Below, piece after piece: positions 1-16,598 of a stretch of 34,304 nt of DNA. A model generated the notes under the pieces. The model was not told the origin of the DNA. It worked only from the letters and a program-made list of their open reading frames with translations, and ran no database searches. Position 1 is the stretch's first letter. The number at the start of each line of letters is the position of its first letter. The DNA is from Fibrobacter succinogenes (GTDB taxonomy: Bacteria; Fibrobacterota; Fibrobacteria; Fibrobacterales; Fibrobacteraceae): contig CACWNW010000035.1 in assembly GCA_902762305.1 (NCBI GenBank), positions 1-34,304 on the forward strand, in the 5' to 3' direction. The position numbers and the translations under genes were made by a program.

Positions 1-77
1 TCGCACAGCGGCGACTTCTTGACTGCAAGAGCGATGGCATGTTCGCGACCACCGCTACCAACGACGAGAATATTCAT
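1..77 (-). CDS. purD: Phosphoribosylamine-glycine ligase, N-terminal fragment cut by window edge
   Basis: Only the first 25 codons lie in the window. The translation begins MNILVVGSGGREHAIAL, the N-terminal nucleotide-binding loop typical of PurD (GAR synthetase), which joins phosphoribosylamine to glycine using ATP in purine synthesis. The ATG at 77 is preceded by an AAGGA about nine bases upstream. The gene is a housekeeping anchor, so the accessory region appears to begin immediately to its right. It is cut by the window end, with no sign that it is broken. Confidence 0.85.
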   Translation of the reverse strand, partial: MNILVVGSGGREHAIALAVKKSPLC

Positions 78-111
78 AAGCGAGTCCTTATACTTGTACG
101 GGGGATAATGT

Positions 112-160
112 AGAAAAATAGCATGCGGAAGGGGCCTTGGCCCAATACTACTTGCATGCT
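112..160 (-). terminator. Probable Rho-independent terminator of the 148-669 lipoprotein gene
   Basis: On the minus strand, outer arms AGCATGC (154-160) and GCATGCT (120-126) pair perfectly around an inner GGGCC/GGCCC pairing, and an ATTTTTCT stretch follows. The hairpin overlaps the last codons and stop of the lipoprotein gene and lies between it and purD. Stem quality is good, but the T-run is short. Confidence 0.5.
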
Positions 161-669
161 TTTTCATACGAATCATACCATTCAGGGAAAACTGATTTCA
201 ACTCCACCAACATTCTTTTATCCATTCGACCATTTGAATTCGAAGTCTGACAGCGGTCATTTACAGTAATCGACCCAAGATACAGCGAATCACGATTAAA
301 GCAATCTACAAGCAGATTATACGTTGCATAAAAATTTTTTATCGCACTCGAATCTTCTTCCAATGGAAAAGACAAACTGAAGGCATGTTTATATACGCTT
401 GAATCAGCGACTTCAAATATTCCTTTCTTTGCACTTTTATCATTGCGCAACATAATCTTTGATGTTCCAAATTCTCGATTCCATATTTTCCCAAGGGGCT
501 TTACAGGAAATCCATAAACAACACAATATGCTGCGCTAAAAGTCTCTCTTTTCTCTAGATATTCCTTTTCAATAGAATTCAATTCCTGTTCATCCTTTTC
601 TGTAGAACAAGATACTAGCAGAAAGAATATGGCACACAAGAAGATCTTCATCATTCCATTTTTGCACAT
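148..669 (-). CDS. Small hypothetical lipoprotein (173 aa)
   Basis: A short hydrophobic segment ending in LVSC, followed by a charged STEKDEQ stretch, forms a lipobox, so the product is probably an exported lipid-anchored protein. The rest shows no family I recognise; it contains several scattered cysteines after the lipobox. I chose the ATG at 669 because GGAGAAAATAAT sits directly in front of it. The frame stays open up to 726, but that extension reads a remnant of a GNAT gene 3' end (674-701) and has no lipoprotein-like N-terminus. The ribosome-binding site itself seems to derive from that remnant, whose codons for MEKI overlap the GGAG. Further ATGs at 654 and 651 are possible alternatives. 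Function unknown. Confidence 0.65.
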   Translation of the reverse strand: MCKNGMMKIFLCAIFFLLVSCSTEKDEQELNSIEKEYLEKRETFSAAYCVVYGFPVKPLGKIWNREFGTSKIMLRNDKSAKKGIFEVADSSVYKHAFSLSFPLEEDSSAIKNFYATYNLLVDCFNRDSLYLGSITVNDRCQTSNSNGRMDKRMLVELKSVFPEWYDSYEKACK

Positions 670-673
670 ATTA

Positions 674-701
674 TTTTCTCCATCAAAATCCACGAGACTC
701 C
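674..701 (-). repeat. GNAT 3'-end repeat, copy A (leftmost)
   Basis: On the minus strand this reads GVSWILMEKI in the GNAT frame, matching the tail GVSWIFMEKN of the full GNAT gene at 21718-22194. The shared core TCCACGAGACTCC on the plus strand is identical to copies B and D. It is the left border of the defence block and supplies the ribosome-binding site of the lipoprotein gene that follows. Confidence 0.6.
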
Positions 702-785
702 AGTTGTCGATTTTACGTTGAATCATCAGTTTTTCCGTTTATCCAACCTTAAAACAACTAATTTCGTCCGTTTTTCCAACTATTT

Positions 786-914
786 TTACGACATTTTTGC
801 CCATTTTTCCAGTTTATCTCTCATGGCCGGGCGATTCTTGAACCGCGACAGCCAAGATATTTTCAGCCGGTTGACTTCCGGAAGGCCGCCTTCGTACTTG
901 AGCCGTTCGAGTCG
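786..914 (-). pseudogene. C-terminal remnant of an unidentified protein
   Basis: After the TGA that ends the AlbA_2-type remnant (915-917), the same minus-strand frame stays open for 43 codons. It reads RLERLKYEGGLPEVNRLKIS and ends SRFKNRPAMRDKLEKWAKMS before a TAA. No start codon or ribosome-binding site precedes it, so it is probably a gene tail left by recombination. The P-x-V...RFKNRPAM pattern faintly recalls the C-terminus of glutathione S-transferase-like proteins, but I do not claim that identity. Confidence 0.3.
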
Positions 915-1576
915 TCAATGTTCAGGTTCCCGAGCTTTTTCGTGAATCGCCACATATTTCTGAATCCGGCTATTCGGCTTATCCGGAACAGTATAACGTA
1001 TTCTTTTGTTAAGCAATGGCTTGAGGTACAATTTATCAAAACTCTTTCGGTCAGACAACTTCAAGAATGCCATCATCTCCTTTTTAGACCGAGGGATTCT
1101 ACAGAACAAGACCAGTTCATTGCATTTAGTTTGTATATCATCTTGGGGGGCGACTTGGGGGGGAACTTGGGGGGTGATCACGTCAAAATCCGAATTCAAC
1201 ACATAATACACCGAGTCAACCGTTTTGCCCTTTTGCTTCAAAACGCCCATTTTTTTAAGAAAATCAAGGTTTGAATCAGCCAATTTCCGTTTTTCACCGA
1301 CAAATTGAACATACTCGCGCACCGCGTAGAAATATCCAACTGAGCCTTATCTGGATTTTCAACACCCTCAATCCAAAAACGATTGTCGAGCGCCTTGGAA
1401 TCTTCACCAATTCCTAAAAGAATATACCCACCGCCAAGCCCAGGTTCGTTGCTAAACGAACAGACAGACTCCATCAACGACTGAGCCGAATCACTTTCGC
1501 CCTTGGCCTCAATCCACACGCATTCATCGGATTCGGACAACAGTTTATAGAGTTCTTGTGCAGTGTAGAGTTTCAT
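915..1576 (-). pseudogene. Broken AlbA_2 (Schlafen-like) domain regulator with internal deletion
   Basis: The first part starts at ATG 1576 behind AGAGGAAAACA. It reads like the N-terminal AlbA_2 domain of putative DNA-binding/ATP-dependent regulators, with CVWIEAKGE, GGGYILLGIGED and CASMFN in the expected order. The frame then runs into a stop at 1238. A second overlapping frame (915-1322) holds a plausible C-terminal part beginning REYVQFVGEKRKLADSNLDF. Full members of this family are normally several hundred residues, so the middle (the AAA-4-like ATPase part) is missing and the two ends are joined out of frame. The gene lies last in the long minus-strand defence block. It is almost certainly inactive as a full protein, though the isolated AlbA_2 domain could still be made. 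Confidence 0.6.
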
Positions 1577-1679
1577 TGTTTTCCTCTAGTCCATGGGATT
1601 CCTATTCTACCTAAATATAACTCCATTCACTTGACACAAAGTGACAAAATGACATTTTCCTCAATAGCGTAACAGCCCC

Positions 1680-2891
1680 TTACGCAAGCGTATAATAATC
1701 AAGTATCAAGTCAACCGCACTTGCGTCCTTGAGGATTCGGTTTTCGTAGCGTATCCGTCTGCTTCTTATTTGCTTCTTCGCAGCTCTTTCTTGCTTTTCA
1801 TATTCCTGTCGATACATGATATCCGTCATAAAAGGGCCGCGTTGAACTTCAATCTCGGGCATTGGCTCGGGTTCGTTTCTTTTTTCAAAGTCCATGAGAT
1901 CCAAATACGTCGAAATCCTTAGACGGTTCTGAGAAGACAAGCCCATGGCCGTTGCATAGACTTTTGCGTTTCGAATGATTTCAGCATCACGAGGAATCCC
2001 TATAGACTCAAGATTATCCGGAATATAAGAGAATCCCATAAAATAGACTCTCTGCGCATTTTTCAGGAATCCTTGATACCTTTCTTTTTCGGATTCATCG
2101 CGATTCTGGCGCTTTTCCCAGACAGTTTCCATCCTCTTGGCAATTTCTTGATACATGCCATTTTCTACAGCACCAAAGGGAATTTCCTCAAGAGAGCCGA
2201 TAAAGCCATTGACATGAAATATTTGCATTTCTTTTATGAAGGAATGAGCGTCTGCATCTGCATATTGTTTGTCCGATGTCAAATACAAGAAGATGCAATA
2301 TTCCAGGACGCGGTCATAATTAAAGGTAAGGAACACTGTTTGTTTTAAGATTTCTTTCCAATTATCTTGTTGGTCTATCAGAGAAAGCAAATGCTGAATC
2401 CAGTCAATGTTGCCAAGCCATTGTTCCTTCTTTTTACCTTCACCACCTCTTACATAAGAGTTTTCCGACTCTTTTTCCGCCATAAGAATTTCACGGGCGA
2501 TCAATCGCTTACCAAAGTCAGCCTCTTCTGATTTTTCTTGGCCTAGACGATTCTTTAAGAACTCATCTGTCGAAACCATCATCGAATGGCGAATACTCTT
2601 GGCAAAATCCTTTACTATTGAAGAAACAATATTGTTTATCGTTTGCTTTTCTGAGTTTAATCTTGTGTTATAACCACCTATTTGGTTTGCTTTGTTTTTG
2701 TATTCACTATATGTAATATGCAAGCGTTCTGGATACAAGTCAAAGAGATAGTGTCTATCTAGCAAATGCTGCGCCGCAAACTCAAAATGATCTCTATAGT
2801 CAAAATTTTTCAAATTCTGCATCAGCATAGCGCCCGTAGGGAATCCATACGGGACACTGCAACCGGCACCTATGATAAAGACATCAGACAT
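1680..2891 (-). CDS. SIR2-like domain protein (403 aa), probable defence NADase
   Basis: The N-terminus has the Rossmann-type NAD-binding loop GAGCSVPYGFPTG (about residues 8-20). TFNYDRVLEY follows at about 189-198, HVNGFIG at about 226-232, and the YFMGFSYIPDNLE segment near residue 290. These are the hallmark blocks of the SIR2-like families found in many anti-phage systems, where they usually destroy NAD+ to stop infected cells. The C-terminal 100 residues are charged and have no recognised domain. I chose ATG 2891 rather than the in-frame TTG at 2894, with AGGA about nine bases upstream. It follows the DUF1016 gene on the same strand, separated by a tiny ORF. The NADase activity is inferred from the family; a bare deacetylase-like role is less likely given the neighbours. 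Confidence 0.75.
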   Translation of the reverse strand: MSDVFIIGAGCSVPYGFPTGAMLMQNLKNFDYRDHFEFAAQHLLDRHYLFDLYPERLHITYSEYKNKANQIGGYNTRLNSEKQTINNIVSSIVKDFAKSIRHSMMVSTDEFLKNRLGQEKSEEADFGKRLIAREILMAEKESENSYVRGGEGKKKEQWLGNIDWIQHLLSLIDQQDNWKEILKQTVFLTFNYDRVLEYCIFLYLTSDKQYADADAHSFIKEMQIFHVNGFIGSLEEIPFGAVENGMYQEIAKRMETVWEKRQNRDESEKERYQGFLKNAQRVYFMGFSYIPDNLESIGIPRDAEIIRNAKVYATAMGLSSQNRLRISTYLDLMDFEKRNEPEPMPEIEVQRGPFMTDIMYRQEYEKQERAAKKQIRSRRIRYENRILKDASAVDLILDYYTLA

Positions 2892-2897
2892 CAATCG

Positions 2898-2957
2898 TTA
2901 TCCTACTTCCGTATCGGCTTTTTTCTTAGACATTATCTCAGTCATTTTCTTGGTCAT
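2898..2957 (-). CDS. Possible 19-codon leader ORF before the SIR2-like gene
   Basis: Between the DUF1016 stop (2966) and the SIR2 start (2891) the minus strand reads MTKKMTEIMSKKKADTEVG then TAA, ending six bases before the SIR2 ATG. There is no obvious ribosome-binding site. The ATGACTGAG inside it resembles the first codons of the DUF1016 gene (ATGACTGAG at 4096), and both lie just after a copy of the same 33-bp repeat. It may therefore be the stub of a duplicated DUF1016 5' end. It could act in translational coupling, but may equally be meaningless. Confidence 0.25.
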   Translation of the reverse strand: MTKKMTEIMSKKKADTEVG

Positions 2958-2988
2958 TTGACATTTCAATGCTTTATTTTGGAGGGGC
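2956..2988 (-). repeat. 33-bp direct repeat, copy downstream of the DUF1016 gene
   Basis: This matches 4153-4185 at 30 of 33 positions (plus strand begins ATTTGACATTTCAA and ends TTTATTTTGGAGGGGC), in the same orientation. It includes the stop codon and last residues of the DUF1016 gene. The two copies flank that gene exactly, suggesting it can be lost or gained as a unit. Confidence 0.6.
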
Positions 2989-4096
2989 GAGTTTTCCCTT
3001 TGGATTTAGGCAAGTTTTTCTTTTGATATTCTATTTTCAAATCTGGATGTTGCAAATAGAAATTTTTCTTTTCTTGTTCAATGGCCAGTTTCAGCTCATC
3101 TTGCGTGGGCATATACGGCATATACTTTGCCATAAATATCTGTTTTGAGTCATGTAACACAGAATAGCGAGCGATATCTTCATCTGTCTTAGAACAAAGT
3201 ACTATGCCGATAGTCGGATTATCCCCTGATTTCCGTTTCAAGTCATCGTACATCCGTATATACATATCCATCTGCCCAACATCCTGATGTGTGATTTTAC
3301 CGATTTTCAAGTCAAACAGCACATAGCACTTCAACTCAATATTGTAGAAAACAAGGTCAACATAGTAATCATCCGTTTCAGTGACAATATGCTGCTGACG
3401 GGCGACAAAAGCAAAGCCCTTGCCCATCTCCATCAGGAAATCCCGTATGTGAGTCAAGATGGCGCTTTCAAGTTCAGTTTCGGTATAGTCATTTGCTTGA
3501 AAACCTAAAAATTCAGCAATTACAGGGCTCTTAATCAGTTCAAACTGGGAACTCTGAAAATTTTTTGTATTACGTTTCATTTCGGCAATCACCTTTTCCT
3601 TTTTGGGCGAATGCAAAAGTCTTTCGTAATACTGCGTAGATATATTCCTATCCAAAGTTCTGACGGGCCACATTTGCGAATCGGCCTCTTTCATGTACCA
3701 CATTCGGGCGTCGTCATTCGACACCGACAACAGACGCTTAAAATGGGACCAATTAAGATTGCGCACACATGTGTTCACAATTTCAAAATCGTTAAACAAC
3801 AGATAAAACTTCCTGAAATATTGAACATTCCGTTTGCCGTAGCCATCCCCGAATTTTCTAGTCAAATCCTCCGAAATAAGTTCAACAAGCCGATCCCCGT
3901 ATGCCGCCCTATTCTTCCCCTTCTGTTCTTGTTCGACAATTCTTCGCCCAATATTCCAGTTTGTGACTACAATGATTGAACTGACGGCGCTGTTGGCCGC
4001 ATTTCTGGCGTTCTGGACAAGTTGAGCTATTTCGTCCAAGAACTTGCTTTCGCTTTTAGTCGCAACTTTCAGGTGTTTTACTTTTGGCTCAGTCAT
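2966..4096 (-). CDS. DUF1016/YhcG-type PDDEXK nuclease domain protein (376 aa)
   Basis: Residues about 20-170 form the alpha-helical DUF1016 N-terminal region, with NWNIGRRIVEQEQKG and YGDRLVELISEDL typical of the family. Residues about 195-340 are the PDDEXK-like nuclease fold. They show LESAI (209-213), YVDLVFYN with Asp247, and VLFDLKIGKI with Asp262 and Lys264 as the likely metal-binding and catalytic residues. Length fits the family. The ATG at 4096 is chosen; upstream sequence is repeat material. Members often sit beside type I restriction systems and in defence islands, as here, but their exact role is unsettled. The final residues (KGKTRPSKIKH) are encoded by a 33-bp direct repeat that also occurs before the start, so the native C-terminus may have been replaced. 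Confidence 0.8.
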   Translation of the reverse strand: MTEPKVKHLKVATKSESKFLDEIAQLVQNARNAANSAVSSIIVVTNWNIGRRIVEQEQKGKNRAAYGDRLVELISEDLTRKFGDGYGKRNVQYFRKFYLLFNDFEIVNTCVRNLNWSHFKRLLSVSNDDARMWYMKEADSQMWPVRTLDRNISTQYYERLLHSPKKEKVIAEMKRNTKNFQSSQFELIKSPVIAEFLGFQANDYTETELESAILTHIRDFLMEMGKGFAFVARQQHIVTETDDYYVDLVFYNIELKCYVLFDLKIGKITHQDVGQMDMYIRMYDDLKRKSGDNPTIGIVLCSKTDEDIARYSVLHDSKQIFMAKYMPYMPTQDELKLAIEQEKKNFYLQHPDLKIEYQKKNLPKSKGKTRPSKIKH

Positions 4097-4268
4097 TTGT
4101 CATATCCCTTTATCAGCATTCGCGATTAAATATACATTCTTGCCAGGACATAATTTGACATTTCAAAATTTTATTTTGGAGGGGCAAGCCTTCCCCTCGC
4201 TCGCACTACGTTGCTCGCTACTCTTTCTAGCGGGGACACCCCGCAACGCCCCGAAAGCAAATACCATA
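4097..4268. other. Repeat-rich spacer between the HNH and DUF1016 genes
   Basis: This spacer holds the second copy of the 33-bp repeat (4153-4185) and a perfect hairpin GCGGGG-ACA-CCCCGC at 4230-4244. It also holds a weaker AGGGG/CCCCT hairpin near 4180-4197 on the minus strand. The GC-rich block 4186-4255 contrasts sharply with the AT-rich HNH gene on its right. The hairpins may terminate transcription leaving the HNH gene, but no long T-run follows either one. Confidence 0.45.
4153..4185 (-). repeat. 33-bp direct repeat, copy upstream of the DUF1016 gene
   Basis: Partner of 2956-2988; only three adjacent positions differ. On the minus strand it lies about 55 bases before the DUF1016 ATG and could also carry part of its leader. 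Confidence 0.6.
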
Positions 4269-5489
4269 TCATACTTCATCTAATTGATTTATAATATCTG
4301 TTTTAAATTTTCGAAGTGGATAATCATCACCATCATCAAAAAATAAAGGTAAACCCAAAAGAATTTTCTTCAAAGACTCTTTTTTTTCTTCGGAGACATT
4401 CTTTTCTTCGTAATATATTTCTGCATATTTTTCTAAATTGACTCCTAAGATAGCAGCATATTTCACAAGTAAATTTTTCAATTCTAACTGATGACCATTA
4501 TACAGAATTTCCAAATGAAATACATCATTTGAATTTTTGACAAGTTTTTTAAACTTCTCTATTTTATGGCCTTGAACTCGATCTATAGCGATTTCACTTT
4601 CCGAAAATTTTTTTTCTATTGATATCTTATAGCTTGCCTTGGGAATGAAACTTTTTTGCGCTGTTTTGACTATTTTTATTTCATCTCCATCCATTCTAAA
4701 GACCGCATTATTTCCAAATTCTTCTAAATACGGATAAATTGTATCTTTATCACAATCATTTTTCCCTTCATTGCAAAAAGGGCAAGATGGGATTAAATTA
4801 TAAAATGAACATGATAAAAAGGGGTATTTCGATTTTACATAAAAATGATCTAATTGAGGACGGCATTTCCATTCCCCCTCTTCATTTTTTGCTGTAAAAA
4901 CATATTGCCTGTTGCAATAGGGGCACACCGTCAACTTCAAACTATCGCATAGACTATACGCATTCCAAGACGATTCTTTGTCATACAATTTTTTATAACC
5001 CAGCAATTGTTGAATTTCATCTGACAGTTTTTTCTTTTTGTTGTATTCGTCTAAATCATTTTTTACAACAGCTTCCAAAGCCTCCACTTCATTTTTCAAC
5101 GCTTCATTATCTTGATCGTTTTTTAAATCTTTTTTCTTTTTTAAATATTCCTTTAATTGACTTGATTTTTCAACAACCAAATTCTTAAATTTCAAAGAAT
5201 CCCTAACTCTTTTCAATTGAGATGGTTGGGTGCAAATAAGTTCTTCAAATTCTTGATCTTTATCTTCAGCGAAATAATTTTGATCTTTTTTCTGCTTTTC
5301 TGTAATAAACCCCAATAACTCGTAAAGTCTTTTTTTTCGATTTACCGCTTTAGTAAACGCCCCTTTCACTTCCCTTGAGGCATTTTGGGGTGGTTTCGGT
5401 TCTTTTATTTTAAAATTCGATCTTACCCATTCCCAATGGGCTTTTTCCGCTTTGGCGACTTCAGGAGAATCCTTGTTTATTTTAATCAT
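4269..5489 (-). CDS. HNH endonuclease (406 aa), third gene of the RT-nitrilase/ATPase/HNH module
   Basis: The first 165 residues are highly charged and predicted helical or coiled coil (runs of K, E, D). An HNH/zinc module follows: CPYCNR at 189-194, QLDHFYVKS at 212-220 with the catalytic-type Asp-His, and NLIPSCPFCN at 231-240. Two CxxC pairs would bind a structural zinc. This layout resembles the HNH partner (PtuB-like) found with an ATPase in Septu systems and in some retrons; that link is by family pattern, not a search. The ATG at 5489 has a GGGG about nine bases upstream and lies 12 bases after the ATPase stop. It is strongly AT-rich like the two genes before it. Likely role: DNA or RNA cleavage once the ATPase/RT sensor is triggered. 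Confidence 0.75.
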   Translation of the reverse strand: MIKINKDSPEVAKAEKAHWEWVRSNFKIKEPKPPQNASREVKGAFTKAVNRKKRLYELLGFITEKQKKDQNYFAEDKDQEFEELICTQPSQLKRVRDSLKFKNLVVEKSSQLKEYLKKKKDLKNDQDNEALKNEVEALEAVVKNDLDEYNKKKKLSDEIQQLLGYKKLYDKESSWNAYSLCDSLKLTVCPYCNRQYVFTAKNEEGEWKCRPQLDHFYVKSKYPFLSCSFYNLIPSCPFCNEGKNDCDKDTIYPYLEEFGNNAVFRMDGDEIKIVKTAQKSFIPKASYKISIEKKFSESEIAIDRVQGHKIEKFKKLVKNSNDVFHLEILYNGHQLELKNLLVKYAAILGVNLEKYAEIYYEEKNVSEEKKESLKKILLGLPLFFDDGDDYPLRKFKTDIINQLDEV

Positions 5490-5501
5490 AACGCATCGCC
5501 C

Positions 5502-7391
5502 CTATGATTTTACTTTTCTCTTTAATAAAGTTTTTAAAATCGGATCACCAATTTGATCAAGTAGTAAAAGATCCTTTTTAACGACATTTCCACTTTTCAA
5601 ACGAGAAATCAGTTCATTGATTTTCTTTTCTATTAAGATCCCCATCGTCCCATCTAAAAAGAACCCCGTTTGTAAAATGTCTAAAATATTCCCAGCCAAA
5701 GGACATGATACACTATTATTGTCAACAAATACTTTTCCAAATCGTCTTCCTTCAGCATCTTTTTCTCTCTGCAATCTTAAAATATTATCGCTCAAACAAT
5801 CTGTCACTATAAAAGGAGAATGCGTTGCCATAATTAATTGAACTTTTAATGTTTCACCCGTTCCTAAAAAAGGTTTTTTTAAAGGATCATTAACATCCTT
5901 TCGAATTTTTTTCAGTCGATATTGCATATCATCCAATAAATCAACAAAAACATCAAACCATTTTCTTTGCCATTCTGGATGCATAAATAAATCAGCTTCA
6001 TCAACCAACAAACAAATCGAATCTAAAGACGCTCCCTTCCTCGCAGATTCCTTCAAACAACTATACAGTCTTGAATAGAAACGAACAAATTGTTTTTCTC
6101 CAGAACTTAATGTTCTAGTAAATTCAAATGAAAATAACGGATATAAATAATACATTGCATTATACAAATCTCGAACTTCTCGCAAAACTTGCTTTCTATG
6201 CCTTAAATCAAAAATAATGCCCTGATCGTTTTTTTTACATTTTTTTGACAATTCAATAATTTTTTTTGTTCTAAGACCTTGTTCTCCAATGTTATTATCT
6301 CTATTTTTATAAAAGAAATTTTTTAATATTTTATACGGTGCTCTTTCAAATTCACTCCAATTAATCTCCAACACAGAATCAATAGTATTACGAGATTGTT
6401 TCGATGAAAAAGTACGAACACAACTCAGTAATGTTGCAAACAGAAATTTTTTTCCTACAGAATCACAGGTTTCGTCGTAAAGCTTATGAAAAAATTTTTT
6501 TATTCTAGAAATTATCAATTCTTTAACTTCGTCATCTATACTATCTAAATTTTCTGGCAAAGCTCTTTCCAAATCATAATCTACTATATCAGGAAAATGA
6601 TCTGTTAAAGAATTAACAGCGCCATAATGTTTAATATACAAATCAACAAGTTCATTTATTCCGCAATCAACATTATCTCGTAATGGCTTCATAACCATCA
6701 TTTGTGGCACTGGGATTATTTCAAAAAATTTTTCTCCGGCATTCAGCATCAATTCTATCACACGATTTTGTTCCATTTCAAAATGATAAACTCGTTCATC
6801 CTTGCGGGAATAAATTTCCTGAATATCATTTGGAACACTAAGTATCGTTTGTTTATCTCTATAAAGAAATCCATTAGTGGAAATATTTTTATAATTCTCA
6901 TCCAAAACGACATCAACATATTCTTTAAATTCTGGACTAAAGTATATGGGCAAATCTTTTGAAAAAGAAAATTTTTTCCCTTTTTCTAAATTAGGCAATT
7001 TTATATTTAATTTTACTTTTACGGTTTTAGACGAGACAACATGTATTTTCTTATTTTCAACAAAAACTAATGCATACTCTTTATTATCATCGTATTGACG
7101 GCATTTATTTGAGATTATATCAAATAGTGCTTTCAATATCGTTGTTTTTCCAGTTCCATTATTGCCCACTAAAACCTTTACGTCAGTTAAATTGCTAGAA
7201 TAAAAACTTTTTTGATAATTATCGTTTTTTGAAACGGTAACATCTAAAATTCCTGATTTTTTTCTTTCACCATGTACATTATATTCAGAAGAAAGGGATA
7301 ATCCCAAATCATGGAATAAATACCCTTTCGTCTCATCAAAATCATCTAACCTCGAAAAGTTATTAAGCCACAAATAGACAAATTTTTTCAT
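5502..7391 (-). CDS. SMC/ABC-type AAA ATPase (629 aa), PtuA-like, second gene of the module
   Basis: Walker A GNNGTGKTT is at residues 76-84. The ABC signature LSSGEKQ is at 428-434, Walker B LLVDEAD at 461-467, followed by FMHPEW, and the switch histidine MATHSP at 521-526. The wide gap between Walker A and the signature is filled by a helical insertion, as in AAA15/AAA21-type ATPases of Septu, retron and OLD-like defence systems. I see no TOPRIM nuclease at the C-terminus; nuclease activity is presumably supplied by the HNH protein encoded next. The start ATG 7391 has a strong AAGGAG eight bases upstream that overlaps the RT stop (11-base gap), so the genes are almost certainly co-transcribed and translationally linked. 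Confidence 0.8.
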   Translation of the reverse strand: MKKFVYLWLNNFSRLDDFDETKGYLFHDLGLSLSSEYNVHGERKKSGILDVTVSKNDNYQKSFYSSNLTDVKVLVGNNGTGKTTILKALFDIISNKCRQYDDNKEYALVFVENKKIHVVSSKTVKVKLNIKLPNLEKGKKFSFSKDLPIYFSPEFKEYVDVVLDENYKNISTNGFLYRDKQTILSVPNDIQEIYSRKDERVYHFEMEQNRVIELMLNAGEKFFEIIPVPQMMVMKPLRDNVDCGINELVDLYIKHYGAVNSLTDHFPDIVDYDLERALPENLDSIDDEVKELIISRIKKFFHKLYDETCDSVGKKFLFATLLSCVRTFSSKQSRNTIDSVLEINWSEFERAPYKILKNFFYKNRDNNIGEQGLRTKKIIELSKKCKKNDQGIIFDLRHRKQVLREVRDLYNAMYYLYPLFSFEFTRTLSSGEKQFVRFYSRLYSCLKESARKGASLDSICLLVDEADLFMHPEWQRKWFDVFVDLLDDMQYRLKKIRKDVNDPLKKPFLGTGETLKVQLIMATHSPFIVTDCLSDNILRLQREKDAEGRRFGKVFVDNNSVSCPLAGNILDILQTGFFLDGTMGILIEKKINELISRLKSGNVVKKDLLLLDQIGDPILKTLLKRKVKS

Positions 7392-7402
7392 TTTTCATCT
7401 CC

Positions 7403-10400
7403 TTAAACTTTCTTCACAACAAATCTAGCCGACAATGGTTTAATATCTGGTTTTCCCTTTTTCTTGCATTCTTTTTTTACCTTTTTCTTCTCTGCAAAAT
7501 GTTTCAAATTCTCTTTAATTTCCCCATCCAATTTTTCGTAATAACCATATTGATAATAACGATATTTACTTAAATTTATAGATCCAATTATCACATTATC
7601 ATTTTCACCGCCCTTTAAGCGCACAATATCTTTACTGTCTCTATCATAGGGACCGGTAATACGAGAATCGCCATAAAGAGAAGTGTTAGATTGTGCTATA
7701 AAGCAATGAAGATCACGAGATGTGGAAGATATTATTTTTGAAAAATATGTAGTATCCGGGTTAAATACAGATACAGTTAAAATGTCACATAATCCTTTAA
7801 ATAAAGCCCTTGCTGCAACATCAGTCAATTCATAGCATACAAAGGAGGCAATATTTATTCCGTTCCATTTAAAAATTTGATACTCTGGTTCGTGAAGATC
7901 TTCACATATTCTCCCAATTTTAGAGAGTTCCTTTTTTTCTATCGGAGAATAATCATTTTTTTCACGAATATATATCAGGGACTCTTTACCAAAGCGATTT
8001 AAAGGAACTGACAACGGGAAAATATTTAAAAGATAATTGTGGACAAAATCATCTTTTCCCTCAACATATTGTAATCCAGCGACAACAGCAATGTTTGTTT
8101 TCTTAGAAAAACGGATAAGATCTTTAATCCAATAAATCGGAACATAAAGCTCAGGCATTATTAAAATTTTGGCATCATGATAATTGCTATACTGAAACAT
8201 TCCTTTCAAAACATTATTAAAAGATAGTTTTGCGTCATAAGTCAAAGGTTTCCATCGATCCGTTGGATTTTTTGTATCAACTTCAAATTTCACGCTCGCA
8301 ACACCAACCTCTATTTTATTGCCAAAAGACTTTCGTGAAGGGATAATAACTCTATTCAGCCTATATCCAGCGATATTAGACTCTTCATCCATAGAAATAA
8401 CCGGAGAAACAGTCTTTATAAAATTTACTTTTCTATATAAATTTGAGACAAAATCTGATACATACGAAAATTTTCCGTCAGTTCGTCTCTTTATGTGCCG
8501 TTGATAAAAAATTAACAGCATTACTTCTTCATAATAAATAAAATGCGGAGACCACTTAAGTTTTTTCGATTTATCCAAATCACTACTAATGTTTCCAAGT
8601 TCTTTCATTGTCATTTTCAAGAAAGACACTTCATTCTGATAATCAAAATAATTTGATAATGGTATCGGAATCAAGGAATCATCGAAATAATTGACATCTA
8701 TGTATTTTTTGACCTGATCACAAGCCTTTGCGAAATTTTTCTTACAAGCGTCGAAATCTAGTGACAAACTCATATATAAACCAACATTTAACACAGATTG
8801 CAATGTATCTTGTAATTTTTTTGTCAGTCCTTTTGTTGTTGAATAGAGTTCTTTTTTCAAATTATTACATTTAATGTTCTTTATTTCTTTTCTTATTTTC
8901 TTACAAAAAGCCCTTGCGTTACCTTCATCATTTGCAATTTTTCTTCCTTTTGTTCGTTGAACCATAACTAGGAAACTCAGATAACGGCCCCAATAAGGAT
9001 AAAATTCAATGCACTGACTTCCCGAGAAGAACTGTTCAATTTGTGATATATTTTCATCAATATTTTTTTTTAGCTTACTAGATCTGAACGCATCAATACG
9101 TGAATAATTATACAACAAAGAGGAGAAAAAACGTCCCACTTCAAAAGAACTTATATCAATTTGTCCAATATCTCTTATTTTATTCTTCGAGGACAAATTT
9201 TCAACATCATACACCCTCTCTGCGAAAGCTTCTAATTTCAAATCAATATCTGGAATCGGATCTAACTGGCTAGGCTTCACTCTTATAGTTTTGTCATAAA
9301 TATCAATTATCGCCTTTGGTTCATTGTGTTTTACACATACGACCTTAATTTTTTCTTTTTGTATCGTCAAGGTTGGTATTTGCGATAGACTATAATTGTC
9401 GTGATTCGCCTGCAATAAATCAAATTGGATTAAGACTCGATTGATAATATCTGCATTGCATTCATTTTCAGATACACAAGTTTCATAAACTAGTAAAATA
9501 TCATCTACATATCGTCCATAATAAACAGGTTCAGTTTCAAGAACTTTTTCATCAAAATTAGAAAGGTATAAATTGCCTAGAACCATTGAGGAAAATAGAC
9601 CTATAGGAAGTGGATATTCTTCCTTTTTAAATTCATCCATTCCTCTTCTATAAGGAGATATTTTTTCTTTATATTTTATGAAGACTTTTTCAAATAATTC
9701 ATTTAGCACATTTACTATTTTATTCTCAGAATTCTTTGATGCAAAATCATCTAATTGTGAAAAACTAAATCTTACCGAATAAAAAAATGATTTCAAATCC
9801 AACGAAAAGAGAATCGTATCTTTTCCACTATCATAAGATTCTCTTAACGCATCAAAAGCTCGATTTCTCCATGAATTGTATTGAAAATAAAACATTTTGA
9901 AAAATCTATTGCTTTCAAAATCAATATCTTCAGAGACAACATCTTTTCTTACAGAATTACCATATACACATTTTACAGGAAAATCATTTGAATAATAATA
10001 TTCCGCAATAAAGAGAGTCCAAAATACATCTAGAATATATATTTCAACAGGAGCGTCAATAAAAAAATTTACTTCTGTTAAGGATTTCTCGCAATTACTG
10101 ATATTAGAAACGGGCATATCAGCAGAGCGTTTTTTGGGATTTTTTTCTTCAAACTTTTTTGGTAAAATAAAGAAATCAATACTTTGAATCAGCGAATTAA
10201 AAAATATCTTTGACGATTTCTTCCTTGGATGTAACAATGCATCAGCCATGCAAGAAAACGATTCATTCATTTTCTCTGAATCATACTCAAAGTCAACTAT
10301 TTTTGAACGAATCAGAAGGAAATTTTTATTATAGAAATAGTATCCCTTTAATTTTCTATACGCTCCCTCAAGGCATCTCTTAACATCACCAAAATCTTCA

Positions 10401-10408
10401 AGATTCAT
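7403..10408 (-). CDS. Reverse transcriptase-nitrilase fusion (1001 aa), DRT/UG-type defence RT
   Basis: The N-terminal RT shows motif A SLDLKSFFYSV (catalytic Asp204), motif B PIGLFSSMVLGNLYL (268-282) and motif C RYVDD (299-303). A long helical region (about 390-640) follows. The C-terminus (about 685-985) is a carbon-nitrogen hydrolase (nitrilase) fold with MPELY (Glu753), a candidate Lys near IREKN (817) and FVCYEL (Cys858) as the Glu-Lys-Cys triad. RT-nitrilase fusions are known among the 'unknown group' RTs behind DRT type 1 and relatives. Their nitrilase and their association with ATPase-HNH pairs are poorly understood. The start at 10408 is 15 bases after the hsdS stop with only a weak ACGGAA, so hsdS read-through may drive it. 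No space exists for a retron-type msr-msd upstream. AT-rich composition marks it as foreign to the hsd genes. Confidence 0.85.
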   Translation of the reverse strand: MNLEDFGDVKRCLEGAYRKLKGYYFYNKNFLLIRSKIVDFEYDSEKMNESFSCMADALLHPRKKSSKIFFNSLIQSIDFFILPKKFEEKNPKKRSADMPVSNISNCEKSLTEVNFFIDAPVEIYILDVFWTLFIAEYYYSNDFPVKCVYGNSVRKDVVSEDIDFESNRFFKMFYFQYNSWRNRAFDALRESYDSGKDTILFSLDLKSFFYSVRFSFSQLDDFASKNSENKIVNVLNELFEKVFIKYKEKISPYRRGMDEFKKEEYPLPIGLFSSMVLGNLYLSNFDEKVLETEPVYYGRYVDDILLVYETCVSENECNADIINRVLIQFDLLQANHDNYSLSQIPTLTIQKEKIKVVCVKHNEPKAIIDIYDKTIRVKPSQLDPIPDIDLKLEAFAERVYDVENLSSKNKIRDIGQIDISSFEVGRFFSSLLYNYSRIDAFRSSKLKKNIDENISQIEQFFSGSQCIEFYPYWGRYLSFLVMVQRTKGRKIANDEGNARAFCKKIRKEIKNIKCNNLKKELYSTTKGLTKKLQDTLQSVLNVGLYMSLSLDFDACKKNFAKACDQVKKYIDVNYFDDSLIPIPLSNYFDYQNEVSFLKMTMKELGNISSDLDKSKKLKWSPHFIYYEEVMLLIFYQRHIKRRTDGKFSYVSDFVSNLYRKVNFIKTVSPVISMDEESNIAGYRLNRVIIPSRKSFGNKIEVGVASVKFEVDTKNPTDRWKPLTYDAKLSFNNVLKGMFQYSNYHDAKILIMPELYVPIYWIKDLIRFSKKTNIAVVAGLQYVEGKDDFVHNYLLNIFPLSVPLNRFGKESLIYIREKNDYSPIEKKELSKIGRICEDLHEPEYQIFKWNGINIASFVCYELTDVAARALFKGLCDILTVSVFNPDTTYFSKIISSTSRDLHCFIAQSNTSLYGDSRITGPYDRDSKDIVRLKGGENDNVIIGSINLSKYRYYQYGYYEKLDGEIKENLKHFAEKKKVKKECKKKGKPDIKPLSARFVVKKV

Positions 10409-10423
10409 TTTTCATTTCCGTTT

Positions 10424-11611
10424 TTACATTACTTCCACTTGGCCGGTCATGAGGAGCGGGAGGAGGGTGTTGCGTTGGGTGGTTAAGGCTTCGATTTGTT
10501 TTAAATTTATCAATCGCTTTTTAAACATTGGAGAAACTCGTTGAACAAAGGATTCAATGGCCGGCGAGTTCCAGCATATACTATAATTCGTTAAATCGTT
10601 CATAACTATATAAGGAATAGCAGAACCATGAGTACCACCACTGTAAGCGGGTTCAAAAAGATATTTCATCGTGAAATATAGATACGGCATCACAGAAGCA
10701 CTTGTATTTTTCAATACGCACGCATAAGTTCTTTGATACAAATCAAACTTGCCATCATAATACGAAACACGTCCTGTATAGCTTCCATTTCCTGAGACTA
10801 AAATAGCCTGTCCATCATATAAATACTCATTAGAAGACAATTTTTCCGGTGCACAGGAAAAGAAAGCATAATCTCCGGGAATTCTTTTTGAAACATCTTT
10901 TTTTCCTGTAAAAATACGGCATAAATCACCAAGTTTTTTCACTTCCCAATCCGCAGGGATGTTGCGGTTGAGGATTTTGTTGTAGGTGGTTTGGTGGCCG
11001 GCGCATTGGAGGAAGGTGTAGTCGTAGATTGTCTTGGCGGTTTGTTCCAGCACGCGATTCTGGACACGGAGATTTTCAATGCGTTTGTCAAAATCAGAAA
11101 GCATGTCTCCTATTTTCTTTTGAACATTCAAACTAGGCAACATGATTGGCATATCTTCCATCGTCGATACTGCAAGAGTGAATCGCATTCCACTTCCGGT
11201 TGCATTCAGCTCAAAATACTTTTTAATGTAATCGGAACTCATAAATGCGTTCAAATACTTGCCGTAAACAATTTTCTCATTTGGCTTTGCCAAAGCACAA
11301 TGGTAGCCAAGAACAACATCATCAAAATCATCGGCGATGTAAGTCGAAATGCCTATATCATCACGAGTTTCGCTATCTTTAGTAAACGCAACAAAGCCCT
11401 TCTTTAAAGAAAGTTTATTTATGTTGTTATCACTTGCGGATGCGACCATAAACGAATCATAATCCGACTGTTTAATTGCCCAATTGTGGTAAACATCGGT
11501 AAAATTACAAAGCCTTACAATCTTTTCGCCCGGCTTTGTTTTCTTATCAACACTACTGATTACAATTTCAGCAATATCCGCCAATCGATATTTCTTCATT
11601 TCCACAGTCAT
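10424..11611 (-). CDS. hsdS: Type I restriction-modification specificity subunit S (395 aa)
   Basis: The two-half architecture is clear. A first target-recognition domain (about 5-165) is followed by a conserved helix NVQKKIGDMLSDFDKRIENL. A second recognition domain opens at IPADWEVKKLGDLCRIFTGK (about 215), and a last helix ends LLPLLMTGQVEVM. HsdS picks the DNA sequence that the M and R subunits methylate or cut. The start is ATG 11611 behind an AGAGAGA stretch; 29 bases separate it from hsdM. The central parts of both recognition domains are more AT-rich than the flanking conserved helices, consistent with domain swapping between strains. No partial hsdS copy or recombinase for phase variation is present in the window. 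Confidence 0.9.
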   Translation of the reverse strand: MTVEMKKYRLADIAEIVISSVDKKTKPGEKIVRLCNFTDVYHNWAIKQSDYDSFMVASASDNNINKLSLKKGFVAFTKDSETRDDIGISTYIADDFDDVVLGYHCALAKPNEKIVYGKYLNAFMSSDYIKKYFELNATGSGMRFTLAVSTMEDMPIMLPSLNVQKKIGDMLSDFDKRIENLRVQNRVLEQTAKTIYDYTFLQCAGHQTTYNKILNRNIPADWEVKKLGDLCRIFTGKKDVSKRIPGDYAFFSCAPEKLSSNEYLYDGQAILVSGNGSYTGRVSYYDGKFDLYQRTYACVLKNTSASVMPYLYFTMKYLFEPAYSGGTHGSAIPYIVMNDLTNYSICWNSPAIESFVQRVSPMFKKRLINLKQIEALTTQRNTLLPLLMTGQVEVM

Positions 11612-11640
11612 ACAATCTCTCTTTCGACTAGCGAGGGTTC

Positions 11641-13317
11641 TTAAATCTTCATTCCCTTAAGGTTCTTGAGAATCTGATTATCAAGATCTATACCCTGGGC
11701 AGAGAGTGTTTCCAGTTCCTTGGCAAAGCCCTTTATCTTGGCCTTGAATTCTTCGGGGGTTATCTCTACGTATTCGACCTTGATATCAAAGTATTGGCCG
11801 GCGCTCAGGCTGTAGCCCTTTTCCCTGATATCCTTGTATGTCACGGCAACAGAGAAGTCTTCCACAGTCTTCTTTTTACGGAAGGTGCTCACAATCTTCT
11901 CGATTTCTTCGGGGCGTAAACGACGCTTTTGGTTGTTGCCTTCCTTGTATTCTTCGCCAAGTTTGCTGGCGTCAATCAAAATCACCTTGTCGGAATCTTT
12001 CTTGGGCGATTTGTCGAAGAACAGTACAGAAACGTTGGTTCCGGTGTTCGCAAACACGTTACTCGGCATGCTGACCACACCGCTAATGATATGCTTATCT
12101 GTTAGGTATTCAAGTATTTTGTATTCAACGCTCTTTTTCCCTTTTTCCTTTTTTGGAGGCTTGCTTGTAATAAAACCCGTGGGAATAACGATTGCGCCCT
12201 TGCCATCGGCCTTGATGGAGTTAATCACATGCTGGATAAAGCAGGTGTAAATGGCCATCTTGGGCTTATTGGGGTCAACCTTCTTTACCTTGTTGGGGAT
12301 ACCGGCCCAAAAGCGGACACTATCTGCCGCCAGGGTGTCGGAATACTCAGGGAAATCAAGCTTGAACGGAGGATTGCTTACAACAAAGTCAAACTTCTTG
12401 GGGCTTCCATCCTTTTCTACATGGGCGGGTTCCAAAAGTGTGTTCCCCTGCACCACATTAGGCAAACTGCCTACCAAATTGTTCAAGATTAAATTCAGTC
12501 GCAGCATTTCGCTGGACTTGTCCGAAATATCCTGGCTGTAAATGGAGCAGCGGTCCTCGCCCACCTGGTGAGCAAGCGCCATAAGGAGCGTGCCGGTGCC
12601 TGCACTGGGGTCGTAACAGGTTGCGCCCTTGTATTCGGTTTCGGGATCCACCAAAAGCTGAGCCATCACCTGGGCAATGGCACGGGGAGTAAAGTATTCC
12701 GCATACTTACCGCCACCGGCATTGTTGTAATCCTTAATCAGGTATTCAAAAATGCCGCTGAAAAAGTCATACTTTTCGTTGAAAACTTCTTCAAAGTTAA
12801 ATTCGGCAATGTTCTTCACCAACGCCTTGGCAAAATCATCGCGCTTACCAATGTCGGTCACATAGGGCGTAACGGCAGCAAAGATGCTCACTTTCGCCTT
12901 GCCCGAGGTCACCACCGAAAACTGGTCCTGGTTATAGGTCGCGATATCAACCAAAGTGGAATCTAGCAACGCCGAGAAATCGCCTTGAGTCGAAGCATTG
13001 TATAAATGGCTCAAGGTCTGATGCGGCTTGATTAAGGGAATGCCTCCGCCCATGTAAGAGAACAAATCCTCGACTTCTTCATCGGTAAAGGAGTCGTATT
13101 CAACATCCCACTTTTCCGCTTTGCTCAAGCGCTTTTTATAAGGAGTCTTTTGGTTCTTGGCTTCAAAGGCAAACTTGTCGTTAAAGAACTTGTAAAGGAA
13201 AATCTCTGTGATTATCTTGTATTCGTTGCCGCCATTTGCAAGGCCATACGCACCAGTCGTACTTTTAAGGGAATCAATAAGGGCTATGGTTTTGGCTTTG
13301 AGTTCTTCGGTGTTCAT
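11641..13317 (-). CDS. hsdM: Type I restriction-modification methyltransferase subunit M (558 aa)
   Basis: The N-terminal helical domain (about 1-165) precedes an N6-adenine methyltransferase core. The AdoMet-binding motif DPSAGTGTL is at 236-244 and the catalytic NPPF at 315-318. With HsdS it forms the modification enzyme that marks self DNA. The ATG directly abuts the hsdR stop (TAAATG), and its ribosome-binding site GGAG lies in the last codons of hsdR, so expression of the two is coupled. Length and motif spacing are normal; there is no sign of damage. Confidence 0.93.
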   Translation of the reverse strand: MNTEELKAKTIALIDSLKSTTGAYGLANGGNEYKIITEIFLYKFFNDKFAFEAKNQKTPYKKRLSKAEKWDVEYDSFTDEEVEDLFSYMGGGIPLIKPHQTLSHLYNASTQGDFSALLDSTLVDIATYNQDQFSVVTSGKAKVSIFAAVTPYVTDIGKRDDFAKALVKNIAEFNFEEVFNEKYDFFSGIFEYLIKDYNNAGGGKYAEYFTPRAIAQVMAQLLVDPETEYKGATCYDPSAGTGTLLMALAHQVGEDRCSIYSQDISDKSSEMLRLNLILNNLVGSLPNVVQGNTLLEPAHVEKDGSPKKFDFVVSNPPFKLDFPEYSDTLAADSVRFWAGIPNKVKKVDPNKPKMAIYTCFIQHVINSIKADGKGAIVIPTGFITSKPPKKEKGKKSVEYKILEYLTDKHIISGVVSMPSNVFANTGTNVSVLFFDKSPKKDSDKVILIDASKLGEEYKEGNNQKRRLRPEEIEKIVSTFRKKKTVEDFSVAVTYKDIREKGYSLSAGQYFDIKVEYVEITPEEFKAKIKGFAKELETLSAQGIDLDNQILKNLKGMKI

Positions 13318-16300
13318 TTACACTCCATAACTATTATACTGATTGATGTATTCATTAGAAATCAGGTTGCTAATGAATTTACGGTCATCAAGACTTGCGG
13401 TCAAATCAAGGTCCATGAACTTGTGGCTTACGCAGCCTAAAATATCCTTGCGGAGTTTGTCCTCGTTTTCCACAATTCCCGGATTCTTTTCAAACAGGTC
13501 ATCGGCAGAATCCTTGATTTCGATAAGGCTTTTTTGAATTTCGAATTCTTCCTTAGAAAGCAAGGGTCTTTCTTTCTTATCGCTTTGGGCACGCACTTCA
13601 TTTGCTTCTACAATTCGCTTATGAATGCGGACAAATTTCTCATCGTCCTTGTAATGGGACTTTAGCGTGCGATTCTTGCGATTGATTTCCTTGATTTTAG
13701 ACATTACGTCTTTCAAGTAGAAAATGCTGCATTCTGCTTCGGTTTTGTCTTTAGGAATGTAGCCGTGTTCCCTGAAATACTTTTTGAATTCTTCAATAAG
13801 GTTGACAAACTTGTCTTCTTTCTTATCGAAGTTGGCGTCAAATTCGGCACGAACCTTTTCGGCTTCTTCCCTAAGGCTATTAATGATAATCTTGAGTTCT
13901 TCTGAAATGCCCTTGCGGAATTCAAAATCGAGACTATCAAGAATCGTATTGATTATGCCCGACACATCTTCGCTATGGTCGTTGCCTTCCTTGAAGTTAA
14001 TGGCCGCAATGCGGCGTTCCACTTCACGCAGCAAAACAGGAATGCCACCAGGCAGCATGTTCTTATACTTGTCCTGCAGTTCAACGTTCCCGCTGGAACG
14101 GATTCTGTTGCCCAGGCCCTTTGCATCTTCAAGAATTTTACGAAGGTGGTACAGAGGCTCCTTGTCTTCAATTCCATCAATGACTTCGCGGAATTCCTCG
14201 TAATTCTCGGTAGGGAAATTCCACAAGAAATCCGTCAGTTCCTTAATCTGCTGCTTGACTTCTTCGGGATTTTCAATAATCACCTGGCCCGGATCAGCGG
14301 AAAGTTCCAAGCCAGAATCTTCCGTAGTCTTGTTCAGTTCCCGAAGATAGCGGTCGTTGGTGGCATCAAAGTTTTCCTTGATGTCAACAAAGTCCACCAC
14401 ATAGCCGTATTTGAAATCTTTATATGGACGATTGACACGAGTCAGCGCCTGCAACAAATCGTGACCATCGAGTTTGCGGCCAAGATACAACTTTTTCAAG
14501 CGGTTTGCGTCAAAACCCGTAAGCAACATTTTATTGACAATCAAAAAGTCCGTCGTCATGTTCTTCTTGTAGTCAACAATGTATTCCTTGCGTTCCTTCT
14601 TGTCTCCTTCATCATGGAGAATCAGGGACGCCTTCAACGGTTTTTCAAAGAAAGAAGCGTTGTAATGCATCAGCTTTTCTGCCGCCATGTTTGCGACTTC
14701 TTCTTTCTTTTTCTCAATGACACTTAATGCAAAATTGTAGCGTTCGTTCCACAACTCAAAAAGTTTGCGGGCCTGGTCGTTGGTTTTGCAAACAATCATC
14801 GCACCAATAGACTTGTCGTCACATTCAACGCGGAAAGAGGTAAAATCATCGATGATATAATCCAGCAAGGCGTTCAAATACTTAGGATGCTCAATGATTT
14901 TATCCTTATCGATATCGCTCTTTTTGACTTGAATCTGGTTTGCCGAATTGTTTTCAAGTTCATCAAGAATCCCCTGCAAAGTTTCTTTGTAGTGGGTTTC
15001 AATGGGTTCACGCATCAACTTAAGCGTGTAACCGTCCGCAATTGACTTGTCGTAATAGTAGGTGTGAATGTAATCGCCAAACACGCGCCAGGATTCACGT
15101 TCTTCACGAAGCAGCGGAGTGCCCGTAAGGGCGAGCTTTATTGCATGTTTGTCGGCACTCAAAAGGTTTGCAAGGAATGCTCCTTCGGGATTGTAGCCTC
15201 GGTGAGCCTCGTCAATAAAGAATATTCGTTGCAGGTTTGTGTTGTAGCCCGCAGAAATATCTACCGGGGCCTTGTCTTCGGCGAATTTCTGGATATTCAC
15301 CACGGTGATTTCCAGCCTACCGTCGGCACTTTTTACCAGCTGCGTATTCTTGATATCTGCCATGAGTTGTGCGCGGTCTTCTACAGTCTGCACAACAAGG
15401 CCGCGAGCGGCAAACTCGTCGCACGCCTGTTCCATCAGGTCGATTCTATCCACGATGAAATAGAACTTGGCGGGAATAGACTTCTTCGCAAAATAGTCGG
15501 TGAGGCTCTTTACGGAGTAATAAGCCAAAGCCGTCTTGCCGGAGCCCTGCGTATGCCAAATAATTCCACTCTTTACGCCTTCATCCAATTTTTTACGGAT
15601 GGCAAAAGAAGCGAAAAGTTGCTGGTAACGCATTACATGTTTTTCAAGCGTTTTAATCTTTTCGCCGTCGTCTTTTTCGACCGTCTTTTCTACATAGGCA
15701 AAACCATAACGAAGCAGGAACAAGAAACGCTCCTTGCTCAGCAGCGAAGTCAGAATGCGGTTCGTGGGAGTAGTCACCTTGCAATTCGTGGCATACTCCG
15801 GATGGCATTTGAGAGAAAGACAATTTCTGTGCTTAAGAATCAGTTTTTCTGTATCTTCAGAAACTTCCCGATAGGGATACTTGGGGCCGAACTTTTCGTC
15901 TTCTTCGCGAAACACATTGAAAAACGCTTTTTGCTTGCCAATGCAGGCGTAGAACGCTCCCTGAACAGGAACACGATTCGCATTGTCGTATTCTTGATTG
16001 TTGCTAAAAATCATCAACTGGGTGATGTTCAGAAAACGCCTAAAACTTTTGTTGGGCAAACGCTTCTGGTTTGTGCGGCTTTGCTCAGCAACAATGCCTT
16101 CTGCATTATTAGGCTTTTTCACTTCGATAAAAGCCAAAGGCAAACCGTTCACAAAACACGTAATATCTGGGCGGAAACTATCACCCGTCTCCTGATTCTC
16201 GCAAGGAAGTTCCGTCGTCACAAGCCAGCTATTGTTCTCCGGATTTTCGAAGTCAATCAGCTTGATTCCTGAATTCGAAGAGAGAACCTGGTAAAATTCA

Positions 16301-16548
16301 CGACCAAGATCGTCGCTGCCAAGCTTGCTCAACGCAAACTTCGCAAAAATTTGAAGATCATGGAGCTTTTGCTCCGGATTTAAACGAACAAGGGCTTTAA
16401 GGAATTCATCAGTAAGAACGTTGTTGTTCTTATCGAGCCTACCTACCGGAGTTTCTTCGCCGCATTCAGCAAAATAGGTGTAACCCAAACGGCACAGATG
16501 AAGTGCCGCCGGGACCTGAACTCTAGTACATTCGTTAAATCCAGCCAT
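13318..16548 (-). CDS. hsdR: Type I restriction endonuclease subunit R (1076 aa)
   Basis: The N-terminal nuclease domain shows Asp128 (FRPDIT) and the Glu-Val-Lys of AFIEVKKPN (142-144). The SF2 helicase/translocase motor follows, with TQGSGKT at 334-340 and FFIDEAH at about 444-450, then GFDANRLKKLYLGRKL and the RVNR motif further on. The subunit pumps DNA and cuts at a distance when the target is unmethylated. I chose ATG 16548 (MAGFNEC); a TTG at 16554 is in frame. No good ribosome-binding site precedes either, and a terminator-like hairpin lies just upstream, so expression may be restrained. hsdR is first in the order R-M-S, followed by the RT module. Confidence 0.92.
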   Translation of the reverse strand: MAGFNECTRVQVPAALHLCRLGYTYFAECGEETPVGRLDKNNNVLTDEFLKALVRLNPEQKLHDLQIFAKFALSKLGSDDLGREFYQVLSSNSGIKLIDFENPENNSWLVTTELPCENQETGDSFRPDITCFVNGLPLAFIEVKKPNNAEGIVAEQSRTNQKRLPNKSFRRFLNITQLMIFSNNQEYDNANRVPVQGAFYACIGKQKAFFNVFREEDEKFGPKYPYREVSEDTEKLILKHRNCLSLKCHPEYATNCKVTTPTNRILTSLLSKERFLFLLRYGFAYVEKTVEKDDGEKIKTLEKHVMRYQQLFASFAIRKKLDEGVKSGIIWHTQGSGKTALAYYSVKSLTDYFAKKSIPAKFYFIVDRIDLMEQACDEFAARGLVVQTVEDRAQLMADIKNTQLVKSADGRLEITVVNIQKFAEDKAPVDISAGYNTNLQRIFFIDEAHRGYNPEGAFLANLLSADKHAIKLALTGTPLLREERESWRVFGDYIHTYYYDKSIADGYTLKLMREPIETHYKETLQGILDELENNSANQIQVKKSDIDKDKIIEHPKYLNALLDYIIDDFTSFRVECDDKSIGAMIVCKTNDQARKLFELWNERYNFALSVIEKKKEEVANMAAEKLMHYNASFFEKPLKASLILHDEGDKKERKEYIVDYKKNMTTDFLIVNKMLLTGFDANRLKKLYLGRKLDGHDLLQALTRVNRPYKDFKYGYVVDFVDIKENFDATNDRYLRELNKTTEDSGLELSADPGQVIIENPEEVKQQIKELTDFLWNFPTENYEEFREVIDGIEDKEPLYHLRKILEDAKGLGNRIRSSGNVELQDKYKNMLPGGIPVLLREVERRIAAINFKEGNDHSEDVSGIINTILDSLDFEFRKGISEELKIIINSLREEAEKVRAEFDANFDKKEDKFVNLIEEFKKYFREHGYIPKDKTEAECSIFYLKDVMSKIKEINRKNRTLKSHYKDDEKFVRIHKRIVEANEVRAQSDKKERPLLSKEEFEIQKSLIEIKDSADDLFEKNPGIVENEDKLRKDILGCVSHKFMDLDLTASLDDRKFISNLISNEYINQYNSYGV

Positions 16549-16568
16549 AATCAATAATCATTTAACCC

Positions 16569-16598
16569 AAAAAACCGGCTTGCCCGAGTGAGCAAACC
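16569..16598 (-). terminator. Terminator-like hairpin in the hsdR leader (possible attenuator)
   Basis: On the minus strand GGTTTGCTC (16598-16590) pairs with GGGCAAGCC (16585-16577) across an ACTC loop, nine pairs including two G-U. GG and six T residues follow, 20 bases before the hsdR ATG. It meets the pattern of an intrinsic terminator inside the leader of the whole defence operon. Confidence 0.5.

Follow-up and report, generated by a model that had tools for sequence, protein, structure and literature searches.

Three closely spaced genes of a Fibrobacter succinogenes contig (GenBank assembly GCA_902762305.1, contig CACWNW010000035.1, positions 1 to 34 304; this whole stretch of 34 304 nt is called the window below) raise the question whether genes packed so tightly work as one anti-phage system. 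They code for a reverse transcriptase (RT) fused to a nitrilase, an ABC-type ATPase and an HNH nuclease. A preliminary description of the window took them for a single system that could not be matched to a named one, with the RT product or the nitrilase reaction controlling the ATPase–HNH effector. Comparison with more than a hundred relatives gave another answer: the trio very probably represents two separately exchanged defence units stacked behind the hsdRMS genes of a type I restriction-modification (RM) operon, i.e. three independent defences rather than one new three-gene system. Three lines of evidence lead to this conclusion: (i) none of 84 surveyed RT–nitrilase loci carries the ATPase–HNH pair; (ii) the pair occurs elsewhere with no RT; (iii) in an allelic locus the RT stands next to a different partner.

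The features concerned, as given by mechanical gene calls, are as follows.

1680–2894, minus strand: weakly AbiH-like gene (Pfam AbiH 7.6e-4, below the cut-off), a right flank conserved in loci L012, L219, L221 and L222
2966–4096, minus strand: YhcG/DUF1016 PD-(D/E)XK nuclease, flank (Pfam YhcG_C 6.3e-53; 98% DNA identity to allelic locus L219)
4125–4261, no strand: conserved non-coding right edge of the hotspot (blastn versus L012, L219, L221, L222)
4269–10424, minus strand: variable cargo segment with the RT, ATPase and HNH genes (homology to allelic loci is lost at the hsdS stop and, in loci with a resolved right side, found again at 4125–4261; G+C content)
4269–5489, minus strand: HNH nuclease PDC-M62B (PtuB-like) with two CxxC pairs, 406 aa (PADLOC PDC-M62B 2.5e-50, PtuB 1.1e-6)
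5502–7391, minus strand: ABC-type ATPase PDC-M62A (PtuA-like), 629 aa (PADLOC PDC-M62A 1.1e-46, PtuA 1e-17)
7403–10408, minus strand: RT–nitrilase of the UG5-nitrilase kind, a class 3 defence-associated RT (DRT), 1001 aa (PADLOC RT_UG5-nitrilase, E-value 7.7e-186)
10424–11611, minus strand: hsdS, specificity subunit, with its conserved 3′-end as the left edge of the hotspot (PADLOC Specificity_I 2e-58; junctions)
11641–13317, minus strand: hsdM, methyltransferase subunit (PADLOC MTase_I 7.9e-217)
13318–16554, minus strand: hsdR, restriction subunit (PADLOC REase_I 1.1e-43; HSDR_N and ResIII domains)

Read along the minus strand, the order is hsdR, hsdM, hsdS, RT–nitrilase, ATPase, HNH, YhcG-type nuclease and the weakly AbiH-like gene, with spacings of 15 nt (hsdS/RT), 11 nt (RT/ATPase) and 12 nt (ATPase/HNH). 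The preliminary description had the three open reading frames (ORFs), their coordinates and the two inner gaps exactly right, and the defence-type character of all three genes holds; the hsdRMS genes directly upstream were missing from it. As hsdS stops 15 nt before the RT gene, with hsdM and hsdR earlier on the same strand, the trio forms the end of a type I RM operon. We found no terminator-like site on the minus strand between hsdS and the HNH gene; we infer that the RT, ATPase and HNH genes are probably on one transcript with hsdRMS.

One comparison was with another genome of the genus, G067, where the same RT gene stands at the same place behind the same hsdRMS genes (99.07% DNA identity over window positions 7386–10502; 95.6% in hsdR–hsdM). 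This identity ends at the start codon (ATG) of the next gene, and G067 replaces the ATPase and HNH genes with a gene for a 369-aa AbiC-like protein having two predicted membrane segments and a putAbiC domain; a 42-bp patch beyond both cargoes (window 4125–4166) is common to the two loci. Of the differences between the two RT genes, 17 are synonymous and 6 non-synonymous, so that the RT looks constrained in both settings.

In five further genomes (G069, G095, G060, G135 and G074) with closely related hsdM genes, homology runs up to the hsdS stop and is followed by different cargo; thus homology to the left edge is seen in six other allelic loci, that of G067 included. On the right side homology resumes between window position 4261 and the AbiH-like gene in G067, G069, G060 and G135; the right edge was resolved in four loci (L012, L219, L221, L222), not in L220 and L223 (genomes G095 and G074). 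Among the allelic cargo are a Septu-like pair (PDC-M01), PDC-M46, genes resembling GmrSD/SspE and GajB, and a large protein with an HNH domain. With conserved flanks and different cargo in the allelic hsd loci, window segment 4269–10424 represents the variable part of a defence hotspot behind hsdS. Its G+C content is 0.29–0.31, versus 0.39–0.47 in the hsd genes and about 0.40 in the right flank. We considered the common low G+C content of the three genes as a sign of joint acquisition and rejected it, since the cargo of the hsd loci is almost always lower in G+C than hsdM.

Defence genes embedded beside hsdS are known: DarTG2 in enteropathogenic E. coli and others (PMC12255303) and TgvAB in V. 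cholerae (PMC11411939); the site beside hsdS has been proposed as a recombination hotspot (PMC12255303). As in these cases and in that of the Campylobacter rlo genes, unrelated defence genes adjoin hsdS in one operon; in the window, however, the cargo lies behind hsdS at the operon end, and its exchange is shown directly by the allelic loci. In one allelic locus (L222:3876–5094) hsdS is split into ORFs of 225 and 183 aa. The genus has a second family of hsd-linked hotspots (L181, L183, L184, L224, L228, L229, L231); its HsdM is ∼58% identical to that of the window, it has a right flank of reverse-strand genes in common, and its cargo is, e.g. Avs2 with PDC-M62 and TcmP, or a putAbiC gene.

The preliminary description named homologs in which the ATPase and HNH genes are rarely adjacent as evidence that would refute a single system. 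The survey of RT–nitrilase loci (80 from genome contigs and 4 from viral contigs; each species is represented by a single genome in the genome collections) gave this very result. The RT relatives were found by an alignment query, single-protein RT scans of the genome and viral collections having returned nothing. Single-sequence search found nothing related to the ATPase or HNH protein of the window in any of the 84 loci; profile hidden Markov models run over the same loci gave zero HNH matches and a few weak ATPase matches (E-value 1e-5 or weaker) in other genes. A PDC-M62A gene was present in 5 of 42 RT-bearing genomes searched, in no case within the RT locus.

A co-directed next gene was seen in 31 of the 63 RT relatives with room downstream, and none in the remaining 32. 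The 46 genes downstream of RT relatives fell into 37 clusters, the biggest being HsdR (4 genes), while the biggest upstream cluster was HsdS (11); by PADLOC, the immediate upstream genes included HsdS in at least 8 of 33 cases, and the downstream genes (n = 31) included REase_I (4), GajA (2) and Drt1b (2). From these tallies, RT–nitrilases are often stand-alone genes and recur inside restriction operons; in a tree of 66 RTs the restriction-adjacent state requires at least eight changes. Same-phylum RT–nitrilases were also seen downstream of type IIG restriction genes, the next gene coding for a small protein that resembles DprA (PsyrA-like; L010:3711–4184, L011:10971–11480).

The ATPase–HNH pair, for its part, has other company. 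Same-genus relatives of the ATPase gene are followed by the HNH gene, but stand behind an Avs2-like gene (two genomes), a STAND ATPase, a complete Lamassu set or a gene for a 447-aa protein. The pair was found with no RT in five plasmid-collection records (Haliscomenobacter, Priestia, Pantoea, Hymenobacter and E. coli). Among 21 further pair loci (Bacteroidia and others) the HNH gene directly follows the ATPase gene in 20, the remaining one being cut by a contig end; no RT–nitrilase was found in the flanks of these 21 loci, ∼15 of which show at least 0.8 kb upstream. In viral contigs, where a single-protein ATPase scan returned nothing and loci were found by an HNH alignment query, all 11 evaluable loci have the pair with no RT–nitrilase.

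Several individual pair loci are worth recording. The Avs2-like proteins of L183:10873–14592 and L184:5055–8777 are devoid of the N-terminal ∼170 profile positions and are followed 17–20 nt later by a PDC-M62 pair, which possibly replaces the effector. In L185 (genome G104) two insertions of two ORFs each (109 and 282 aa), almost identical to one another, apparently disrupt the PDC-M62 ATPase gene. A viral contig (L268:9302–10264) encodes, next to a PDC-M62-like pair but on the other strand, a 320-aa RT and another ATPase, which may be a retron that includes a PtuA-like gene.

As to its nature, the RT belongs to a known kind, the UG5-nitrilase group of class 3 DRTs; RTs of groups UG1 and UG5 with fused nitrilase have been described (PMC8934634). 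The best profile of another group, Drt1a, matched at 1.2e-25 versus 7.7e-186, so that DRT1 (UG1) is not the best match. The sole solved sequence relative is DRT1 (9YFD, E-value 5.9e-12), which matches along the RT stretch as well as the nitrilase stretch. Active site residues D204 (motif A) and D302/D303 (YVDD at 300–303), as well as the C-terminal nitrilase triad E753–K817–C858, are intact; the triad residues stand at the positions given in the preliminary description, which also had the DRT-type assignment right. Among 62 full-length relatives D204, E753 and K817 are conserved in all 62 and C858 in 60; the figure for YVDD is biased, the relatives having been picked with YGRYVDD as the scan pattern. 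A confident AlphaFold2 model of the protein (pLDDT 86.9, pTM 0.89) had nitrilases and amidases as top fold-search matches. The protein shares with DRT1, DRT5S and DRT5L the C-terminal nitrilase fusion, the intact triad and the RT aspartates; it differs from DRT1 in being just a distant relative known from sequence, and from class 3 DRTs in its placement in an hsd operon.

In other loci (L064, L067–L070, L072, L076, L077, L095) the RT–nitrilase is split into an RT of ∼650 aa and a separate nitrilase of ∼310 aa, with ORFs mostly overlapping by 1 or 4 nt. A distant 1069-aa RT–nitrilase lies close to phage tail genes in E. coli plasmid records (L008, L009), and a second RT gene (431 aa; L002, G000:C32:35563–36057) with a weak UG5-nitrilase profile match is present elsewhere in the genome of the window.

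By its motifs and profile matches, the ATPase–HNH pair is a Septu-like pair, the PADLOC phage defence candidate PDC-M62: M62A and M62B are the best matches, adjacent and in order across the 12-nt gap, and we saw no difference from that candidate. The ATPase has Walker A (G76–K82), signature (S429–E432), Walker B (D464/E465) and H524; the HNH protein has C189xxC192, D214–H215, N231 and C236xxC239, invariant across 17 relatives. These motifs fit the Septu architecture of an ABC ATPase and an HNH nuclease with both active sites intact. The likeness to PtuAB, pointed out in the preliminary description, is borne out by the weaker PtuA and PtuB matches and by the ATPase-family profile, whose best solved relatives in PDB are PtuA and the retron Ec78/Ec83 ATPases; the HNH-family profile matches a TIGR02646 HNH chain (9N69_F, 0.0011). 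The order of ABC ATPase and then HNH nuclease is that of Septu, including the retron-Eco7/Ec78 effectors; the window ATPase, however, is far under the curated NCBIfam score for PtuA (50 bits versus a cut-off of 500), and the window HNH protein, much longer at 406 aa, has no PtuB match there. An AlphaFold2 model of the HNH protein (pLDDT 50.5) was too poor for use. The trio as such was seen in one genome only; its modules, UG5-nitrilase DRT and PDC-M62, are known ones.

A type I-A retron (Ec78/Eco7-like) was rejected, as the RT is of the wrong group and the 15 nt upstream and 11 nt downstream of its gene leave no room for an msr–msd RNA; Rfam search of window positions 1–20000 gave no family match, in agreement with the earlier remark that no retron RNA is present.

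Could the three genes still be one system, the DNA product of the RT or the nitrilase reaction controlling the ATPase–HNH pair as msDNA (multicopy single-stranded DNA) controls PtuAB in retron Ec78/Eco7? PtuAB is indeed an RT-controlled effector in retrons (PMC13096335), the genes share one strand with gaps of 11 and 12 nt, and the trio exactly fills the variable segment. With the trio confined to one genome, the pair missing from every surveyed RT locus (even in the genomes holding both) and thriving with no RT, and a 99% identical RT persisting beside another partner with mostly synonymous changes, we regard such control as highly improbable. A different coupling is that the RT–nitrilase serves as a common trigger whose downstream effectors are swapped at the start codon, as the varied effectors of retron RTs are. 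The switch falls exactly there behind an identical RT, the ATPase–HNH pair and the AbiC-like protein are both effector-type, and Drt1b-like membrane genes follow 2 of 31 RT relatives. On the other hand, about half of the relatives with room downstream have no co-directed partner, and complete unrelated systems are exchanged at the hsdS edge of this hotspot as well, so that a clean boundary needs no coupling; we hold this version to be unlikely, if less far-fetched than the former. One may also turn the argument round and see the pair as an effector shared in the genus by many upstream sensors (RT–nitrilase, effector-less Avs2, STAND ATPase). The sister-species Avs2-like proteins truncated relative to the PADLOC Avs2 profile and the pair behind a STAND ATPase would fit; a complete Lamassu set (LmuA, B, C) before the pair and its solitary occurrence on plasmids and viral contigs would not, and we regard this version, too, as highly improbable.

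Several points weigh against the explanation we favor, a stack of separately exchanged units. Tight packing in the window genome also fits a designed operon, and so does a Shine–Dalgarno-like sequence preserved at the RT end and used by the partner in both versions of the locus. A membrane partner (drt1b) accompanies 18% of drt1 genes (PMC13275509), thus class 3 RTs can have partners. The genome-contig loci of the survey are 80 of 372 candidate relatives, selected by the YGRYVDD motif.

Under the stacking explanation, a site immediately after hsdS in a Fibrobacter-group genome would serve for the exchange of defence genes, and the segment would be what it carries at present. Restriction would act first, with the RT–nitrilase and the ATPase–HNH pair as back-ups expressed together with hsdRMS from a single transcript. 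Judged from DRT1, the model for the RT–nitrilase (PMC13275509), the RT may make untemplated, protein-primed DNA on itself; this self-attached DNA would assemble the enzyme and poise the nitrilase, which, triggered by phage, could attack an essential amide-bearing molecule and abort infection. DNA synthesis was reported for DRT1, DRT5S and DRT5L and defence for DRT1; the DRT1 priming residue Ser402 was reported as unconserved in the other DRTs of class 3 (PMC13275509). On the model of Septu and the PtuAB of retron-Eco7, the ATPase may hold and release the HNH nuclease, which would then cut nucleic acid, tRNA-Tyr in known cases (PMC13096335).

Co-oriented genes of a defence operon lying 10–15 nt apart, therefore, need not form one system; here, what looked like a new system of three genes is resolved by allelic comparison into modules already known. 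The locus is also a well-resolved case of a type I RM operon at which defence genes land. The recent move of the RT–nitrilase, in which another partner took over from the start codon on, offers a good test, set up by nature, of whether a class 3 DRT depends on a partner. If effectors do turn out to be swapped behind a common RT–nitrilase, this would be a class 3 DRT with modular effectors.

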